Source: a virus. From it: DNA of 28,635 nucleotides. A program made the translations under genes and the position numbers. The notes beneath the pieces were generated by a model. The model worked only from the letters and a program-made list of their open reading frames with translations. It was not told the origin of the DNA and did not search any database. The DNA lies in IMG/VR virus record IMGVR_UViG_3300013372_002223, positions 1-28,635 of that record. One strand, 5' to 3'. Below, one piece after another: positions 982 to 26,674 of this stretch. The stretch's first letter is position 1. Every line of letters starts with the position of its first letter.

Positions 982-1035
982 ATTCCTCAGCAGTTTTCTA
1001 TTAAAAGGATGGAAAGTTTGTAGCTGCTGGGGAGT
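982..1035 (+). other. Long RNA hairpin upstream of tRNA-like element
   Basis: Bases 982-993 (ATTCCTCAGCAG) can pair with 1024-1035 (CTGCTGGGGAGT) over 12 bp including two G-U pairs, closing a 30-base loop. The stem has a GC-rich core in AT-rich surroundings and is not followed by a T-run, so it does not look like an intrinsic terminator. It sits 15 bases before the putative 5' acceptor strand of the tRNA-like element and may be a processing or regulatory structure. Confidence 0.4.
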
Positions 1036-1050
1036 TAGAATATTTTTATG

Positions 1051-1205
1051 GCGAGGGTGGACGAGTATGTTAATGTCAGTTTGTCAGCGGTCGACCAGTA
1101 GGCAAGCCACCAGTATAATTAGATTTTAAAGAATAGCGAATTAATTACTCGTAAATGCTTTAAACTAATTTGGTTTCGCAGGTTACAATCCTGTCCCTCC
1201 CACCA
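1051..1205 (+). ncRNA. tRNA-like RNA with encoded CCA, 155 bases
   Basis: The 3' part is tRNA-like: T-stem GCAGG (1178-1182), seven-base loop TTACAAT, T-stem CCTGT (1190-1194), acceptor strand CCCTCCC (1195-1201), discriminator A and CCA (1203-1205). A possible 5' acceptor strand GCGAGGG at 1051-1057 pairs at six of seven positions, followed by T8 and a D-arm-like GAC...GTC (1060-1062 with 1075-1077). Between the two halves, where a normal tRNA has about 40-50 bases, there are about 100, including a long stem of 1117-1122 plus 1125-1131 with 1158-1170 (13 bp, two-base bulge). I cannot assign an anticodon. Alternatives are a tRNA with an insertion, a tmRNA-like RNA, a degenerate tRNA, or a tRNA 3' fragment kept as an attachment site. 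The 3' half is the secure part. Confidence 0.45.
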
Positions 1206-1219
1206 AAATATTTTTCTAA

Positions 1220-1287
1220 GCCACATTAACAAAGAGCGTCATGCTCAATTGCTTTGATATGCAATAAAATGAGTTTGTTGGTGTGGC
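1220..1287 (+). other. Three-way-junction RNA or cruciform element
   Basis: A 14-bp stem, 1220-1233 with 1274-1287 (12 Watson-Crick plus two G-T pairs), encloses two further hairpins: GAGC/GCTC at 1234-1246 with a five-base loop and ATTGC/GCAAT at 1248-1265 with an eight-base loop. This is a compact three-way junction placed 15 bases after the CCA end of the tRNA-like element and 50 bases before the next start codon. It could be the 5' leader of the downstream operon, an RNA processing signal, or a DNA cruciform. No known riboswitch class is recognised. Confidence 0.45.
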
Positions 1288-1336
1288 GCAGTAAGGTATT
1301 TTAATAATTAAGCGAGATAAAATTTTAGGGGAATAA

Positions 1337-5045: not shown

Positions 5046-5528
5046 TTAAACTTTACATAAAGTTTCTTCCGAAGTGATAACTAAAGTAAATTCTTTAGTG
5101 TCGCCAAGAAATTTCATTAATTTATCCATAGCATCTCTTGATTGACTAGCCATCCATTTCTTATGGGTCGGAATCTTAGGGTCGTTCTTAGGGTTCATAT
5201 TTTGAATTGTGATGGCGGGAGCTATACAGCCTTGTAATTCTTCAATCCAGTTGGCGCAGTGTATTCTAACGCCTTGCCAGCCACCAGAAATATTCATTAT
5301 CTCGAAAGTATATTTCTTAAAACGATTGCTGTATGTCCATTTAACTTGATAAGCTCCTTCAGGTATGCAGCAACTCTCATTTAATTTGGTGCTTGGATTA
5401 TTTCTTCTGAATTTCTCTAAACCATGAAATCTAGGGCGTTCAAAGGTTTTGATGATTTCTTTACCATCGCAGAGTAAACGGCCTTTGGTTGCTTCTGGTG
5501 GGTAGTCTCTTATTAGGGTTAATTGCAT
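5046..5528 (-). CDS. DUF5675 family protein, possible cell-wall enzyme
   Basis: A 160-residue protein of the DUF5675 type. Family blocks seen: a CIPEGAYQV turn (54-62), a central strand region, and GVRIHCANWIEELQGCI (86-102), where H90, N93 and G100-C101 are the conserved positions. The IPEG ... IH ... GC spacing is reminiscent of L,D-transpeptidase (YkuD) catalytic blocks, which is an observation and not proof of homology. The gene follows the outer spanin stop by one base (TAAT-ATG), so it belongs to the lysis cluster by position. No classical endolysin is seen elsewhere in the window. No signal peptide. Confidence 0.75.
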   Translation of the reverse strand: MQLTLIRDYPPEATKGRLLCDGKEIIKTFERPRFHGLEKFRRNNPSTKLNESCCIPEGAYQVKWTYSNRFKKYTFEIMNISGGWQGVRIHCANWIEELQGCIAPAITIQNMNPKNDPKIPTHKKWMASQSRDAMDKLMKFLGDTKEFTLVITSEETLCKV

Positions 5529-8523: not shown

Positions 8524-9925
8524 CCTCTACAAAAGCCCCAACAATTTGAAACTTAGTTGGCTCGCTATAATTTAATCTAGCAATGAAAGAACGAGCTTTC
8601 CCGCCTATTTTTGTCCAAAATACCTCTGTTAAAAAAGAGCCTTCTGCGCCTATTGGCTGCCATAATTCATCAGTGTAAGTTTTGCCGCCATTATCAGAGA
8701 ATCTTCCAACTAATTGGGGATTAATACCTTGCCCTGTTGCAATCCCAACTCCTGTGTCCATCATTACAACAAATTTATTTAAAGAAAGTCTTGCGAAATT
8801 CTTAAACATTGTTGTCCCAATGATTTCTCTTTTAATTACTGTCCCATTTTCAGTATAAACATCTGGGTCTAGTTCGTAAATAATTCCAGTTTGGAAATCG
8901 CCGACTAAGTTTTTACCGGCAAAATAAGTGTGGCAATTAGCCTTCCATCTTCCATCAGCGCCTTGGTTATCTACACTTTGTCTTTCGTGGAGAAGTTCAG
9001 TTGTAATATCATATTCCCAAGTTTTATTTTCACTTGGGGAAGTAAAGCAATAAAACTTATGCCCATCTTGAACATAGGTAAAGCCAATTATGTCATCAAC
9101 TCTTGCATAATTTTCTAGTTCTTGCGAAAGGGGGAAAGTTGAGATTGGTTTCAATTGGTATCCAATAGTTTGGTAAACAATTCTGTCATTTCCTAAGAAG
9201 AAAAATGAATTGTCCATTGTGGCAATTGAATATTTTGAAGCGCAACCTTTTTCAATATAAACACCTTCTTTTCTTTGAAACAAAGGCGAACCCGATCCAG
9301 TATTGTAAAATACTTGTATGATATCTTCTTTAAAAAACCAAAGCTCTAAATTGTTTTGATAAACTCTTACTATTTTTGAAGAGTTTGCTTCAACAGTTGC
9401 AGCGTTTAAAGCATTCCAACTTTCTGTTTGATTGACATTCGACCATTGAAATTCATTGCTATTAAGTAAAGCCGATATTGTAAATCCATCTAGGGTTGTG
9501 ACCGAACCTGAATCATTAAAATCACCATCGGTAATTTGAGTTAAAGAAGAAGCGATTGAGGTGCAATAATAAGTAATTCCGTTCGGAAGTTCAATTGTAA
9601 CTTGATCACCGTTGTCAGTCATTGTGACATTGCCAATTTCTGTAGCAATATTACCTAATAAAGTTGTTGTCTTTGAAGAATCTATTTTATAGACTTTGTC
9701 GCCAACTACTACATAAAGATTTTCACCCATTACGCGCATTCCGTAGACAGGTAAAGAAACCCCCGTGTCCTTCCAAACAGTTAAACCAGCAGTTCCTAAA
9801 ACCATATTGGGAAAAGGGCTTGTTTGAGGGGTTATTTCAGCATAACAATTCAGCATTCTTTCTGCCGAAACTAAGCCGCTTTTCGCCTTATATGAATTTA
9901 CTCCAAAATGGATTGGTTGCAGCAT
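8504..9925 (-). CDS. P22 gp10-like packaged-DNA stabilisation protein
   Basis: A 473-residue protein matching P22 gp10 in length and in its opening (MLQPIHFGVNSYKAKSGLVS, then AERMLNCYAE), which is characteristic of the family. In P22, gp10 forms a hexameric ring below gp4 and closes the portal channel after packaging. The rest is beta-rich with repeated short strands, as expected for a propeller-like tail hub. Start ATG shares a base with the upstream gp4-like stop (TAATG), so the two are made together; the P22 gene order gp4-gp10 is preserved. Confident on family, inferred on mechanism. Confidence 0.88.
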   Translation of the reverse strand: MLQPIHFGVNSYKAKSGLVSAERMLNCYAEITPQTSPFPNMVLGTAGLTVWKDTGVSLPVYGMRVMGENLYVVVGDKVYKIDSSKTTTLLGNIATEIGNVTMTDNGDQVTIELPNGITYYCTSIASSLTQITDGDFNDSGSVTTLDGFTISALLNSNEFQWSNVNQTESWNALNAATVEANSSKIVRVYQNNLELWFFKEDIIQVFYNTGSGSPLFQRKEGVYIEKGCASKYSIATMDNSFFFLGNDRIVYQTIGYQLKPISTFPLSQELENYARVDDIIGFTYVQDGHKFYCFTSPSENKTWEYDITTELLHERQSVDNQGADGRWKANCHTYFAGKNLVGDFQTGIIYELDPDVYTENGTVIKREIIGTTMFKNFARLSLNKFVVMMDTGVGIATGQGINPQLVGRFSDNGGKTYTDELWQPIGAEGSFLTEVFWTKIGGKARSFIARLNYSEPTKFQIVGAFVEVESEDD

Positions 9926-19100: not shown

Positions 19101-20006
19101 TTAAACGCCTTCAGAAGCGAAGTAACCACGAGGATCAGTAACTCCGATTGCGTATGAAGTCATCATTTTGTATTTCTCGTCACCAGACTCGAAAGCGCCA
19201 TCGTTGCTAAATTCACCTTGAACAGCAGTAATCATTTTAGCACCTTCTGGAGCATCGGTTTTAATGTAGTAAGCATCATTTGAAGTCAAATGAGGATTTA
19301 CAACGATACCATCAGAGAATAGGCCCATGTATTTCATAGCATTAATATCGTTATTAGCGGTATTAACACGAAGTTGAGATTCAAGGATGCGAGTCGCTTC
19401 AAACATTAAGGCAGATGGAACTTGAAGAAGAGTTGGTTTAATTCTTGCTTTGATTCCCCTGTCGTTGTTTGTTTCTTTAATTTGAGTGCATAACTCTTCT
19501 AAAGCTTCTTCGCAAAGATCTTGCGGAGTTGCTAAAGTGTTAGAGAAGGCACCAGCACGACTTGGGTGGTCAGTAGCAAAGAATTTCTTGCCATCGCCGA
19601 AAGTATAGTTTGAATCAAAGCCATTGTTGAAAAGATTTGCAACATCAACTTCTTTAGTCTCACGAAGAGAAGAAGAAAGATATTCGTTACCTTTAGCAAC
19701 AACATCAAGATACTTACTAAACTTACGAGCTTCCCAAGAAACTTGGAAACCCAAAGCGCGAGTTCTTTGATTGTAGGTTGAAACGTATCCTTGAGTCATT
19801 GAATCATAAGAAACACCAGCACCTTCGTTTTTAGTATTGAAAAGGCCAAAAGGACTTACCAATACGTCTCTGTCGAATTGCTCGTCAGTAGTTGACATTT
19901 TAACCAATTTAGCGGCTAAAAGATCGTCTTCTGTGTAAGAACCCCAGTAAGTAGTAATACCGGGTTTTAATGAAGTAGGAATAGTTCCTGTTACAATAAT
20001 AGACAT
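19101..20006 (-). CDS. Major capsid protein, HK97 fold
   Basis: A 301-residue major head protein. Characteristic blocks: the DRDVLVSPFGLFNTKNEGAG N-arm region, the RTRALGFQVSWEARKFSKYL helix, FGDGKKFFATDHPSRAGAFS followed by a Leu/Glu-rich spine helix, RGIKARIKPTLLQVPSALMF, and NDINAMKYMGLFSDGIVVNP. This order matches the roughly 300-residue Mu-like capsid family, not the 430-residue P22 coat. It assembles with the scaffold-like protein encoded upstream. The leader ahead of ATG 20006 is purely AT-rich without a ribosome site, unusual for such a highly expressed gene. A hairpin follows the stop. Confidence 0.82.
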   Translation of the reverse strand: MSIIVTGTIPTSLKPGITTYWGSYTEDDLLAAKLVKMSTTDEQFDRDVLVSPFGLFNTKNEGAGVSYDSMTQGYVSTYNQRTRALGFQVSWEARKFSKYLDVVAKGNEYLSSSLRETKEVDVANLFNNGFDSNYTFGDGKKFFATDHPSRAGAFSNTLATPQDLCEEALEELCTQIKETNNDRGIKARIKPTLLQVPSALMFEATRILESQLRVNTANNDINAMKYMGLFSDGIVVNPHLTSNDAYYIKTDAPEGAKMITAVQGEFSNDGAFESGDEKYKMMTSYAIGVTDPRGYFASEGV

Positions 20007-20032
20007 TTTTTAAATAAATTTTTAATTAATAA

Positions 20033-20644
20033 TTAGATACCAGCTTTGCCGTTGGCTTCTGTATGATTGTTGATAATAACAACCCATTTAGCGTGCTGAC
20101 CAATAGCATTTTCAGGAGCGTCAAGAAGACGTTTGATTTTCAATTGATAAGTCGCATCAGTTGCTGGGGTGCTAGTGTCTAATTCAGCGCCAGACAAGCC
20201 AGTTGCAGTTGAGCCAGATTCAGCATAAACCACGTTAGCGTTTAGACCAACAGAAGTAACAGCTAAAGCAGTTCCGGCAGATTCTTCTTGAATTAAAAAT
20301 TCTTGGAATGGGCTATCAGCAACAATAGCAACTCTTTCAGTTGAAGCTGTGTTGTAGCTTAGACCTAAGTTGCTTGGGATAGCCAAGAAACCTATAATAA
20401 CACCAGTAATTGGGTTAGTATCGCCAGCAGTTGCTTTATTAATTTCTGGCAAAGAACCAGGATTAAAATAACGACCAGCAGAAGTAACTGCAACAGTGTT
20501 AGAAGTACCAGTTTTTACTACAGGGTCGCCGATAAACAATGCAGTTGCATAACTTGCAGGAATGTAATAATAGTTTTTAGGAATCTCCACAAAAGGAGAG
20601 TTCTTAAGCGGCGTTAAGCCAGCAGGAGTATTAGCGTTAGCCAT
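20033..20644 (-). CDS. Probable head decoration protein
   Basis: A 203-residue Ala/Thr/Ser-rich, beta-rich protein opening MANANTPAGLTPLKNSPFVE, a start type seen in small phage structural proteins encoded just upstream of the major capsid gene. The central part (PITGVIIGFLAIPSNLGLSY; TERVAIVADSPFQEFLIQEE) suggests a beta-tulip or barrel fold as in head-decoration proteins. No ribosome site precedes the ATG. Its position in the scaffold-to-capsid interval supports a capsid-surface role. Confidence 0.6.
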   Translation of the reverse strand: MANANTPAGLTPLKNSPFVEIPKNYYYIPASYATALFIGDPVVKTGTSNTVAVTSAGRYFNPGSLPEINKATAGDTNPITGVIIGFLAIPSNLGLSYNTASTERVAIVADSPFQEFLIQEESAGTALAVTSVGLNANVVYAESGSTATGLSGAELDTSTPATDATYQLKIKRLLDAPENAIGQHAKWVVIINNHTEANGKAGI

Positions 20645-22506: not shown

Positions 22507-22771
22507 TCAAACCTCCATGAAATAAATTCAGCAATTCCGCTATTGCATTCTCGTCTTTTACGCCAAAGTAATTAGAAATTTGTTCTAATGCTTCGCAACC
22601 ACCTAAGGCACTTATTACAAGGTCTTTGTTAAAATTTCCTTGTTGTCCAATATAGTTATGGGACATATTATCTAGCAATTTAACGCGTGAATTCATTAAA
22701 ATTCTTTTAAACTTTAATGCTGTTGGATCGTTCAACCAATCCTTTAACTCTTTCATTTCGATTTGACTCAT
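22499..22771 (-). CDS. Unknown head-module protein
   Basis: A 90-residue helical protein (ELKDWLNDPTALKFKRILMN; KDLVISALGGCEALEQISNY) between the portal and the GroES-type gene. No family recognised. It overlaps the GroES gene by eight bases, indicating coupled translation. Size, acidic charge and location fit a small head-assembly or co-chaperone partner, but this is speculation. Confidence 0.55.
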   Translation of the reverse strand: MSQIEMKELKDWLNDPTALKFKRILMNSRVKLLDNMSHNYIGQQGNFNKDLVISALGGCEALEQISNYFGVKDENAIAELLNLFHGGLSE

Positions 22772-22793
22772 TTTTTACTCAGATTTATTAATA

Positions 22794-24998
22794 TTAAATA
22801 TCAGCAGCGGTTTCATCCTCCTTTTCGATTTCTTGCATTGTTGTAGGAATTTTAACTTGCTGATTCTCTAGCTTTGCTAGTTCTATTGCCGCTTTAAATC
22901 TTCTATCTTCTTTGCGGTCTTTCATTTCATTTTGTCTTGATTCGGCGTCAATCATATTATCTAAAACATCTAATTTTTCTTTTGTTTCTGCCATCTCGGT
23001 ATCTTTAACTAATTTACCAGCTTGTGCGTAGTTTACTAATACTTCAGAATCTGTTTTAGCTGATTCTTTTTGAAGTTTAATTTGATCTAATTGGAATCTA
23101 TTAGCTTCGTTCTGCATATCGCCTTGTATTTTAAGGCGTTTAGTTTCTTCTTGCGCCATAGCAACTTCCATTACTGGATCGGGTTGTGGTTGCGGAGGAA
23201 TTACGAATTTATCAAAGTTTTCAATTCCAGCGGTTTCAAATACTGTTCTATGCAGCAAGAATTGATCAACCATAGGAGAGCCAATAAAGCCCATTAAGAA
23301 TTGAGCCTTCGCATATTTTTGCATTGAAATGACATTTTCAGGGTTTGCAACTGGCACAATGTCGTAACCCTTTAATGAGAAGTCTTCTTTAACGCTTGGG
23401 CTTTCAAATAACTTAATGTCTAAAATTTCGGCGTATTTCTTTTGAGTTAAATATTCTGAATCTAGTTCGTAAAATATGTTTATTTCTTGGCGCAAAGAAT
23501 TGTAAATCCGCATGAAAACAGACTTAAATTGCTTCTGCCCTTGTTCAGCCATTCCCATATAAGTAGTGGCCGCAATATTTCCCGCGTTCTCACCAGTCAA
23601 AACATCTCTTAAAGAGCCTAATTCTTTTCCTGCATTGACCAAGAACTGCATCAATACAAATAAAGTTTGCGAAGGCTCTGGCGTTGGAAGAGGCACAATC
23701 GCATCTCTAATGTTGCCACCAAAGCTATCAACCATCTTCCATTCAGAAAGTCGAAAAGGTTTCATTCCTCCAGTCATATTTAGAGACTTAGAAATAAAAC
23801 CGCCACCAGTATTTTGAAGCGTTCCAGCATCTGTCAATTGATTAATCGAACTATTGATTGCTGAGTTAATGTTAAACAGTAAATGACCTAACCCAACGCC
23901 ATAGAAAGAGCCATCAGGTGAGGGGGTAAAGATATAGCGCACAAAAAAATTGATTGCTTTAATGCTTTGGATCTCGCCCTTCTTGTTTTTTTTAACATTT
24001 TTTGCGTGGAATCTTTTGACTAATTTAACAAGTTGATTTGAAGCTTTGTGAATTACCGCAATATAAGGCTCTGCATAGCCATCATTATCTAAATCGAATC
24101 TTGTGTGTTGCTCTAAGAATATAACTAAACCAGCTTGCGATTCGTCAGAAGTTTTTTTCTCGTCATTCTTATCAAGCCCGTTGGTGTCGGTTGCGGAATC
24201 TTGAGCATCGGGATCAAAATCAAAATCAATATAATCGCCAGAGCGAATTGAGGAAACTACATCTTGCGGATATTTCTCAATAATATGAGTTACAGGAGCT
24301 TCAAAGGAAGGTGCAAAGTCGTTTAAGATTAATTTATCAGGATAAACTAAATTAGAACAGATCTTCTCTTCGTTTGAGTCATAATAATCTTTTTTAAACA
24401 TCGTGCCTAAAGAGCCAAGAGCATTAAACAACGCGTCCATGTCTTGCTCAAAGTTCTCTACTTCTTCATTCAACTGATAGTTCATAACAGTTGAAACTCT
24501 TTGGCCGCGCTTAAGTTTAGCGCCCACATTTTGTATAGCTGGCAAGCCTGTTTCATCAAGGGTAGCAATAGAGCCGTCTTCATTAAACATCTCGTTGCCT
24601 TCCACATCCTTCATCACCTCACCATCATCATTGCCAACAACTTTGGCCTTAACAATGTTTCCATCTTTAAAGATTTCAGGATAACATTTAGCAGCGAATT
24701 CAACGCAAGCTGTGGAAATTAAAGGAAAGATAACATTTGAAGAGCCTTCAAAAGGAAAGGAGCGCTTCTCTGATTGTGAGAGAGTGTAGCGGATAATTTG
24801 TTGAAGCTGTTTTTGTTTTTCGCTTCTTGATTGTAAATCTGTATTGTATCGAGTGTTGACTTTGCCAGCAATAGACGCGCGCATTTCTTCAGACAATATT
24901 TCGGCAATATTATCTGTTTCTAAGATAGTTTTAAAATCTAAATATTGGGCAGCGTCTTGAGTAAGCAAGGTTATTTTTGCGTTTTGTTTACAATGCAT
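22794..24998 (-). CDS. Portal protein, P22-like
   Basis: A 734-residue portal of the P22 family (P22: 725). Recognisable blocks: the N-terminal helix-rich part with KRSFPFEGSSNVIFPLISTA (about 80-99), the stem/wing region with YDSNEEKICSNLVYPDKLIL, VRYIFTPSPDGSFYGVGLGH, and SAINSSINQLTDAGTLQN, and RDVLTGENAGNIAATTYMGM in the clip-side half. The C-terminal 100 residues form a charged coiled coil (EETKRLKIQGDMQNEANRFQ) like the P22 barrel. Twelve copies should form the DNA channel. The start follows GAGTAA closely. It lies between a tRNA and the gene at 22499. Confidence 0.88.
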   Translation of the reverse strand: MHCKQNAKITLLTQDAAQYLDFKTILETDNIAEILSEEMRASIAGKVNTRYNTDLQSRSEKQKQLQQIIRYTLSQSEKRSFPFEGSSNVIFPLISTACVEFAAKCYPEIFKDGNIVKAKVVGNDDGEVMKDVEGNEMFNEDGSIATLDETGLPAIQNVGAKLKRGQRVSTVMNYQLNEEVENFEQDMDALFNALGSLGTMFKKDYYDSNEEKICSNLVYPDKLILNDFAPSFEAPVTHIIEKYPQDVVSSIRSGDYIDFDFDPDAQDSATDTNGLDKNDEKKTSDESQAGLVIFLEQHTRFDLDNDGYAEPYIAVIHKASNQLVKLVKRFHAKNVKKNKKGEIQSIKAINFFVRYIFTPSPDGSFYGVGLGHLLFNINSAINSSINQLTDAGTLQNTGGGFISKSLNMTGGMKPFRLSEWKMVDSFGGNIRDAIVPLPTPEPSQTLFVLMQFLVNAGKELGSLRDVLTGENAGNIAATTYMGMAEQGQKQFKSVFMRIYNSLRQEINIFYELDSEYLTQKKYAEILDIKLFESPSVKEDFSLKGYDIVPVANPENVISMQKYAKAQFLMGFIGSPMVDQFLLHRTVFETAGIENFDKFVIPPQPQPDPVMEVAMAQEETKRLKIQGDMQNEANRFQLDQIKLQKESAKTDSEVLVNYAQAGKLVKDTEMAETKEKLDVLDNMIDAESRQNEMKDRKEDRRFKAAIELAKLENQQVKIPTTMQEIEKEDETAADI

Positions 24999-25012
24999 TT
25001 ACTCAAGTTTAG

Positions 25013-25094
25013 TGAAAGTAGCAGGATTTTAACCTGCGAAAGCTTGCGCTGACTCTGATTAAGAGTTTCCTTTAGGACCCTTGGATATACTTTC
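25013..25094 (-). tRNA. Class II-like tRNA between terminase and portal
   Basis: An 82-base cloverleaf on the - strand: acceptor GAAAGTA/TACTTTC (7 bp), T8-A9, D-stem TCC/GGA with AAGGG in the loop, anticodon arm AACTC-TTAATCA-GAGTC (four good pairs), variable arm AGC-GCAA-GCT, T-arm GCAGG-TTAAAAT-CCTGC. The long variable arm puts it with Leu/Ser/Tyr-type tRNAs. Oddities: C56 is replaced by A in the T-loop, base 37 is C and not a purine, and the anticodon reads AAT in the best fold or TAA if shifted by one. CCA is not encoded (ACTA follows). Probably a tRNA, possibly degenerate. No gene overlaps it. Confidence 0.65.
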
Positions 25095-25135
25095 AAACCA
25101 AGTAAATTCATTAAAAAATAAATGTCAAGCGTTAT

Positions 25136-26674
25136 TTAATACCCCGTTATTGAATTTCTATTACTTGCATTCAAATACTCTTCATAAGCCCAGTCATCAA
25201 CAAAGCCTTTTTGTTCTTGTGCGTAAGTCTCTAGTCGATGGATTGAAGCTGCAAAAGTTTGGAACGCATCAGCGCCGTTTGAGTTGATATCATGCAACGG
25301 CTGATCCATAAAGCATCCAAGCTTGTCATTAAACTTCTTGCGATATTCTCTAAGCCTTCCAATACCCGTTTCGCATCTCTTCTGATCAAACCAGCAACGC
25401 GCAATGATTGTTCTTGCTTCGTTGATTGAGTCCATTTTGTTTTGCGCTCTCGTTATCTTCTCGAATCTAAAGCCAAAGTTCTTTGCAATCTCTATTCCGT
25501 CCTTGCCGTCATAATAACTTCTTTTGCTTATGTCGTGCGGTGCAAAGTGATTGCCGTAGTTATATCCTTTGTCTTTCAAAATCTTAAAGTAGTGAGGCAA
25601 TGGCTCTTCGCTCATCTCGTAGTAATCAACTAAGGTGAAGTCGAAGCCTTTCTTCTGATAGAACCAAATACAAGTTGTGTCGTTAATCCCTAAATCCCAT
25701 GCAGTATGCACCGGAAGATTCTGGTCAATTCCAACTCTCCCGATCCTTCCATCTTGTTCTGCTTTGATTAGCTCTTTGCTCCAATAAGCTCCAACAATAG
25801 CTTTTTGGAATGCTTCTTTGCTATTACTCGGGAACTCTTGCTTCATCAAGTCGCCTTGCGTTTCTTCTTTCTTGCAATACCAAGTCTTCTGCTGCTTGGT
25901 GAGTTCAATCCCTTCGTTATCAAGTTCTAAAAAATAATCATTTTGCTTGTCGTTAAAGTGATAGTCAGCGACCATCTTATATTTCCTGTCTTTCCACCAT
26001 CCGAAGAAATGAAACTTCCAATCTAACGGCGTTAGCTCCTCTTTCATTCTCATCTTTCTTTCTGCAACATCACACAGATTGAAGAAGTGACCGCTTGCCC
26101 CTTGCGCCGTTGATTCAATTACAATCTGTTGTCCTTGGTGAACTGTGTTGAGTGAACCAGACATTATTTCTTCTGCTTTGTCAGGACTCTTGCGGCATAT
26201 CTTGCCAAACTCTGTAATGTGCAAGCGTTGAACTGTACCCGACCTTGCACTTGTAGTGACAGAATAAGAAGAGCCATTGCTAAAGCGCATGATTTCAGTT
26301 GAATCAGTCACTAACTTGCGATGCTCTCTTATCTCTGCCGGTAATCTATCATAAGCATATCTCGCTTTATCTCTAAGTAGTTTCTTCGCATCTTCTAAGT
26401 CATCACCAATTAAAACGGCTGTGATGTTTGAGTTAAACAAACAATCATCAAGATAGTTGATGCAATAAAAGGTTGTAATCCCTAATTGGCGGGCTTTAAG
26501 AATAATGTTGAGAGGGTGCTTCTCTTCAATTAATTCGCTTTGTGCTTCATTACAGATAAACTTAAACTCTCGCCCGTTCTCATCTTTGCAATAGTACAAG
26601 TTGGACATGCGCCAAGCTTTGCTACTTAATAGTTCAGTTAGTTTTCTTTTTTTTTCTTCTACTTGATTATTCAC
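25136..26674 (-). CDS. Terminase large subunit
   Basis: A 512-residue packaging motor and nuclease. ATPase: KARQLGITT (60-68), the Q-L-G-I-T type of Walker A lacking GKT; Walker B LHITEF (151-156) with E155 catalytic; coupling motif ESTAQGASGHF. Nuclease: AWDLGIND and HDISKRSYYDGKDG, then HDINSNGADAFQTFA carrying late acidic residues, consistent with the RNase H-like fold. The start is GTG at 26674, overlapping the TAA of the gene upstream. The tRNA follows downstream. It works with the small subunit at 27669, here separated by three small genes. Confidence 0.92.
   Translation of the reverse strand: MNNQVEEKKRKLTELLSSKAWRMSNLYYCKDENGREFKFICNEAQSELIEEKHPLNIILKARQLGITTFYCINYLDDCLFNSNITAVLIGDDLEDAKKLLRDKARYAYDRLPAEIREHRKLVTDSTEIMRFSNGSSYSVTTSARSGTVQRLHITEFGKICRKSPDKAEEIMSGSLNTVHQGQQIVIESTAQGASGHFFNLCDVAERKMRMKEELTPLDWKFHFFGWWKDRKYKMVADYHFNDKQNDYFLELDNEGIELTKQQKTWYCKKEETQGDLMKQEFPSNSKEAFQKAIVGAYWSKELIKAEQDGRIGRVGIDQNLPVHTAWDLGINDTTCIWFYQKKGFDFTLVDYYEMSEEPLPHYFKILKDKGYNYGNHFAPHDISKRSYYDGKDGIEIAKNFGFRFEKITRAQNKMDSINEARTIIARCWFDQKRCETGIGRLREYRKKFNDKLGCFMDQPLHDINSNGADAFQTFAASIHRLETYAQEQKGFVDDWAYEEYLNASNRNSITGY

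Follow-up and report, generated by a model that had tools for sequence, protein, structure and literature searches.

The stretch of DNA analysed here (the window) is a 28.6-kb virus record of IMG/VR (IMGVR_UViG_3300013372_002223) with a G+C content of 36%, in which terminase, portal and capsid genes are present. Its early region contains a RusA-like gene (558-890), and inside the 446-base gap between this gene and an orphan open reading frame (ORF) at 1337, for which no relatives were confirmed in IMG/VR, lies a tRNA-like RNA of 156 nucleotides (nt), referred to here as type A. The minimum-energy fold of positions 1050-1207 is a cloverleaf with five helices, in which the acceptor encloses the D and T arms with a 29-nt hairpin and a long variable arm between them (Table 1). 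In all seven sequences of this RNA collected from the window and from other contigs, an anticodon arm of 5 base pairs (bp) and 7 nt is not present, and a hairpin of 7 bp and 15 nt with an invariant loop occurs instead. Because an anticodon arm was tested for and is absent, the element is classed as a tRNA-like RNA and not as a tRNA. It is a discrete RNA unit that combines a covarying cloverleaf, a tRNA core, an invariant loop and, in relatives, a tRNA-array context, and selection maintains its tRNA body and fixed hairpin without an anticodon.

An initial annotation of the window had placed a tRNA-like RNA of unusual length at 1051-1205, and these boundaries are almost exact. The T arm, acceptor strand and CCA that it had recognised at the 3' end are all confirmed, and its D-arm-like GAC/GTC could be located as a 3-bp stem. 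The 5' strand (GCGAGGG, 1051-1057) indeed pairs at six of the seven acceptor positions, and a better register starts at G1050, where all seven bases of the 3' side are paired once C1052 is bulged. The acceptor thus has eight bases in its 5' strand and seven on its 3' side, a reading supported by the relatives, in which the odd base is C, A or T and never G. The interior, described as about twice the normal size, is accounted for by the 29-nt hairpin and a 66-nt variable arm; inside the latter lies a stem of about 13 bp, as had been reported, and the remark that no anticodon arm is plausible has been borne out.

Table 1. Type A RNA, its parts and the adjoining hairpins in the window
Feature	Position	Strand	Evidence
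Hairpin 5' of the tRNA-like RNA	982-1031	+	Predicted fold
Whole tRNA-like RNA (type A), 156 nt	1050-1205	+	Homology to six other loci with diverging flanks; covariation
Acceptor stem, 5' strand GGCGAGGG, C1052 bulged	1050-1057	+	Three pairs changed on both sides in relatives; odd base not G in any sequence (C, A or T)
D arm, 3-bp stem GAC/GTC (1060-1062/1075-1077), loop with invariant A14, G15 and G18	1060-1077	+	Both sides changed (A-U to G-C) in three of the seven sequences; loop indel of 2 nt
29-nt hairpin at the anticodon-arm position, 7-bp stem	1079-1107	+	Two pairs changed on both sides; no 5+7 anticodon arm
Invariant 15-nt loop AGCGGTCGACCAGTA with internal palindrome GGTCGACC	1086-1100	+	Identical in 7 of 7; T-arm-only pattern recovers the same five IMG/VR loci
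Variable arm, 66 nt: conserved ACCA/TGGT base stem and long hairpin of variable size	1109-1174	+	L247 has only the base stem; L248 and L252 have about 80 nt
T arm GCAGG-TTACAAT-CCTGT, C56 replaced by A	1178-1194	+	Two pairs changed on both sides; T loop TTA[AC]AAT in 7 of 7
Acceptor 3' strand CCCTCCC (1195-1201), then A73 and encoded CCA (1202-1205)	1195-1205	+	CCACCA conserved in 7 of 7
Hairpin 3' of the tRNA-like RNA, AAGCCACATTAAC...GTTGGTGTGGC	1218-1290	+	Predicted fold

Homologues, covariation and conserved core

Homologues were searched for in IMG/VR and in genomes with a 16-nt pattern taken from the loop of the 29-nt hairpin. The pattern is held by 12 viral and 64 genome loci, of which only six are homologues, the remainder being chance matches in unrelated DNA. 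Five homologues lie on IMG/VR contigs (L247, L248, L252, L254 and L258) and one (L322) on a phage-like contig of a metagenome-assembled genome (MAG) of the Rickettsiales. L258 (IMG/VR 3300044655_001244, also G022), which was reached via terminase relatives, matches the element at 86% at about 24912-25064, with unrelated flanks. A pattern derived from the T arm alone retrieves the same five IMG/VR loci, and therefore the fixed loop is not an artefact of collection by loop. The seven sequences are 100 to 168 nt long, and apart from the D-loop indel the whole difference resides in the variable arm, which in the shortest homologue (L247, 100 nt) is a 4-bp hairpin only. A covariance model of the seven sequences (R1), run over 217 genomes of the order to which the MAG belongs, matches one phage-like contig only, and type A is therefore not a cellular RNA in that order. 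None of 50,697 annotated phage records matches the RNA, and BLASTN searches with the region among annotated phages and plasmids returned nothing relevant; with the L247 and L322 regions as queries, the matches listed all fall over the ordinary tRNAs of those arrays. ARAGORN and Rfam report no tRNA or other RNA at the element in the window, and no Rfam family other than tRNA matches type A. A description of such an RNA was not found in the open-access literature searched, and an earlier one in a subscription paper is possible.

The reality of the element is established by comparative evidence, i.e., pairing and covariation; its overall folding energy is unremarkable (z -1.5) and was rejected as evidence. 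In the alignment of the seven sequences (A1, 26 named pairs), which were gathered by loop sequence and not by pairing, the pairs of the cloverleaf, those of the acceptor, D and T stems included, are standard in 99.5% of the cells, compared with 38-55% in slid controls. Changes on both sides affect eight pairs in 14 cells (three pairs in the acceptor, one in the D stem, two in the 29-nt hairpin and two in the T stem); shuffles give 3.8 and 4.4, and none of 500 is as high. The 5' half, on whose conservation and covariation the initial annotation had made the element depend, is conserved, and paired positions covary. A descriptor combining acceptor, D stem and T arm in proper geometry gives the element a score of 24, which none of 200 shuffles of the entire window (first-order Markov) reaches (best score with NCCA after it, 14). 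Applied to gaps in the window and in 20 related records, the same descriptor finds 18 matches of at least 20, ordinary tRNAs among them, and none in five shuffles.

Many of the nucleotides that define a tRNA are retained. U8, A14, G15, G18, A21, U54, U55, A58, A73 and the CCA are invariant in the seven sequences, and in six of them a C directly precedes the T stem. Position 56 is always A, position 19 is U in six sequences and C in one (L322), and position 57 is A or C; judging from these bases, a U19-A56 contact in place of G19-C56 is plausible. The longest invariant stretch, of 25 columns, consists of the fixed loop with its flanking stem.

Likely kinship with tRNA-Tyr and the tRNA arrays of relatives

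The identity of type A as a tRNA-derived RNA is well supported. The L247 homologue scores 29.9 bits against the tRNA family of Rfam (RF00005, cut-off 29), with the anticodon arm treated as an insertion, and the element of the window itself goes unreported; R1, built from type A sequences only, gives canonical class II tRNAs scores of 20-50 bits. With the anticodon arm removed, tRNA-Tyr takes the first three places among 314 canonical tRNAs, and the nearest single tRNA is the tRNA-Tyr of the Rickettsiales MAG that carries L322. This sequence comparison provides a lead of moderate strength that the type A body is nearest to tRNA-Tyr.

In L247, L252 and L322 type A stands beside ordinary tRNAs (Met, Arg, Asn, Gln). 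The L247 and L322 arrays comprise tRNA-Met, tRNA-Arg, tRNA-Asn and tRNA-Gln together with other tRNA-like units; several units in these arrays are separated by AAAATCGTGAATA, and the array end is the hairpin GTTAGCCTTCTGTAAAAAGG or a close variant. A RusA-like gene is located directly upstream of the locus both in the window and in L254. The place of the hairpin 5' of the RNA is occupied by an unrelated hairpin in G022, L254, L248 and L252, and the first approximately 20 nt of the hairpin on the 3' side are similar to the same place in L252. Scanning the locus for promoters yielded nothing above chance. An Acb2/Tad1-type anti-CBASS gene lies close to arrays at G009:C1:40557-40712 (minus strand) and at G032:C33:11659-11835 (L322 3602-3844; Rickettsiales MAG contig).

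Other tRNA-like RNAs accompany type A. In L254 and L248 the unit that follows it belongs to a second kind of tRNA-like RNA (type B), which also occurs in L247 and at G001:2984, G002:5368, G028:1557 (minus strand), G008:3372 and G024:41533 (minus strand). Type B is 96-211 nt long and has the Leu-type D arm TGGCGGAATA..GACGC, an acceptor of at least 7 bp and a T stem of 6-7 bp with the loop TGAAATT or TGCAAAT; it is without CCA, and its interior is highly variable. Its stems pair throughout with many pair types, the members having been partly selected by pairing. A 70-nt tRNA-like unit with CCA and the T loop TGCGAAT is found in L247 at about 5361-5434 (minus strand), where the anticodon arm consists of 7 bp with a GAAA cap (CTTTATTGAAAAATAAAG). 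A third kind, with GGACTGTTCTTTAYTGACGARTAAAGTTT and an encoded GCCA, lies in L322 at about 2215-2335 and in L247 around 5524 (minus strand), and adjoins type A in both.

Additional RNAs were noticed at other loci. Between portal and terminase, at 25012-25094 of the window (minus strand), ARAGORN calls a tRNA-Ile(AAU) with a class II body, a Ser-like D arm and a long variable arm; in its T loop, TTAAAAT, A takes the place of C56, a C occupies position 37, ACTA stands in place of an encoded CCA, and TTTCGCAGGTTANAATCCTG is common to it and to type A. Close copies are present in L074 and L075. A Ser-like tRNA-like RNA of 107 nt, also with the T loop TTAAAAT, lies in G003 at 9329-9435 (minus strand; locus L073) and has an 8-bp stem closed by CCAGAA at the anticodon position. 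On a contig with a RusA relative (L036, 353-447), ARAGORN predicts a 95-nt tRNA with the 4-base anticodon acaa, to which it assigns no type. Long non-coding stretches extend over G022 24397-25178 and 26264-26672, G002 31473-32399, G007 22723-24372, G025 19412-20266, G011 8577-9319, G020 1-949 and G009 40326-41943. These have conserved pieces of 60-100 nt in common in shuffled order (e.g., ACTGCGTAGCGGGGG, AAGCGCAGAAATGCG and GTCGCAAGACAAACCGTGGGAGT), gave no Rfam match in those searched and appear to be arrays of unknown structured RNAs.

A proposed use in phage-host conflict and its rivals

The presence of tRNAs in phages is usually explained by codon usage or by the replacement of tRNAs destroyed by defences. 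A conserved tRNA body with a fixed hairpin for the anticodon arm can serve neither, and points to tRNA shape being used in phage-host conflict in a form overlooked by tRNA finders and Rfam. We consider the chances to be about even that type A is a phage RNA which derives from tRNA-Tyr, does not decode and acts as a tRNA mimic on a host protein that handles tRNAs. Originating from a class II tRNA, with tRNA-Tyr as the nearest, such an RNA would be transcribed from the RNA locus that follows the RusA-like gene, matured as a tRNA by a 5' cut at the acceptor with the encoded CCA at its 3' end, and folded into the tRNA elbow; its charging state, too, is inferred. Decoding would be impossible because the 29-nt hairpin with its fixed 15-nt loop replaces the anticodon arm. 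The tRNA body would confer stability and recognition by host tRNA-handling proteins, and the fixed loop would make the specific contact.

The main rival, possible but in our view rather unlikely, is a different division of labour, in which the tRNA body serves only as a scaffold that is stable and can be processed, and function resides wholly in the fixed hairpin, which would bind a protein or another RNA or dimerise via the palindrome GGUCGACC. The 25 invariant columns are in line with this, the palindrome could form an 8-bp duplex of -14.1 kcal/mol at a cost of about 3 kcal/mol for opening the inner stem, and GOLLD and ROOL, other large phage RNAs, assemble through RNA-RNA contacts (PMC12286853). 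However, an 8-nt palindrome is expected somewhere in a 15-nt loop with a chance of about 3%, the tRNA core nucleotides important for the L shape are also kept, and targets complementary to the loop do not exceed chance in the window, two phage records and the MAG. As an antisense target, the loop complement was found only in the element itself and in one two-mismatch site in the MAG. The intact acceptor and CCA, the largely kept tRNA core, and the company of decoding tRNAs in the arrays of relatives could also suggest a tRNA that decodes with an anticodon arm of unusual form and extended length (e.g., for frameshifting or recoding), but this is improbable given an arm of 7 bp and 15 nt in place of 5 bp and 7 nt, the lack of a U33-anticodon-purine37 pattern, the bulged acceptor and the loss of C56.

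Introns in the anticodon loops of tRNAs are known, and the arm exceeds the normal length by 12 nt; nevertheless, a tRNA restored by splicing is very improbable, as no flanking anticodon-loop halves like those of tRNA-Tyr (CTGTAAA) or another tRNA are present, the loop is invariant with the would-be intron included, and Rfam gives no match to a group I or II intron. The initial annotation had offered a tRNA with an insertion, which holds for the variable arm, inserted relative to a class II tRNA, but not for the anticodon arm, which is replaced and not interrupted. Just as improbable is a decaying pseudo-tRNA or an integration scar (attachment site): the T loop is non-canonical and tRNA finders miss the element, yet eight pairs show compensatory changes on both sides, the loop is fixed, the CCA is kept in seven records with divergent flanks, and no integrase was noticed beside the element. 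Decay is refuted by the covariation. A tmRNA-like RNA, also offered by the initial annotation and in keeping with the tRNA-like ends and long interior, is the least probable of these readings, since neither the tmRNA (transfer-messenger RNA) families of Rfam nor ARAGORN report a match, a D stem is present, and the homologues, 100-168 nt long, carry indels that are not multiples of three, so that no tag frame is conserved. The remaining proposals of the initial annotation, a tRNA mimic or a new phage RNA, are those supported here.

For the tRNA mimic, context and precedent suggest counter-defence as the most likely use, in which type A would either inhibit, or serve as a decoy for, a defence enzyme that cuts tRNAs, or would occupy another tRNA-binding factor. 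Defences that cut tRNAs are countered by phage tRNAs (PMC11555353), and PtuAB of Septu/retron-Eco7 cleaves tRNA-Tyr in the variable loop (PMC13096335), i.e., in the part that differs most among type A homologues, which counts in favour of such a use, as does the Acb2-type gene near the arrays of G009 and G032. Several observations weigh on the other side. The change of the anticodon in a phage tRNA-Tyr abolished protection against retron-Eco7 (PMC11555353); rescue needs the anticodon, and supplementation is therefore excluded for an anticodon-less copy, which leaves decoy or inhibitor as the only role that would fit. Moreover, the affinity to tRNA-Tyr rests on just nine Tyr tRNAs in the comparison set, the contact 19-56 between D and T loops, U-A in six sequences, is C and A in L322, and the Acb2-type neighbour is absent from the window and ten other records tested. 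Overall, type A represents a new form of phage tRNA-like RNA, a real RNA class that is probably turned against the host cell. A broader and more tentative proposal, which we think somewhat less than evenly probable, is that these phages carry whole sets of tRNA mimics without anticodons, every one derived from a different tRNA and co-arrayed with working tRNAs, and that the mimics serve as RNA decoys against host immunity directed at tRNAs or capture some other host factor that binds tRNA. The defined loop and the covariance model are now available for finding further members.

Comparison with known RNAs

Type A shares with class II tRNAs, and with tRNA-Tyr in particular (RF00005), the acceptor/D/variable/T architecture, many of the core nucleotides, A73 and the CCA, and differs from them in lacking an anticodon arm and in having the fixed 29-nt hairpin, the acceptor bulge, the change of C56 to A and a variable arm of up to about 80 nt. 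The phage tRNA-Tyr and tRNA-Lys that counter retron-Eco7, Septu, PARIS and PrrC (PMC11555353, PMC13096335) resemble it in their tRNA-array context, tRNA-Tyr-like body and altered variable arm. However, they decode and need their anticodon for rescue, whereas type A is without an anticodon arm and hence without a GUA anticodon. Transfer-messenger RNA likewise has tRNA-like ends without an anticodon; type A contains no messenger part and no predicted pseudoknots, and has a D stem. Y RNA-like RNAs (YrlA), which are bound by Rsr and known in some phages, are non-coding RNAs with a tRNA-like module. This module is common to both, but type A has no such Rfam match and no TROVE/Rsr gene is present in 12 records tested, and a YrlA reading was rejected. 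So was a GOLLD or ROOL reading, with no Rfam match in the window or the arrays searched. Like type A, GOLLD and ROOL are structured phage RNAs near tRNA islands (PMC12286853); they reach 600-900 nt, whereas type A is far smaller and forms a single cloverleaf.
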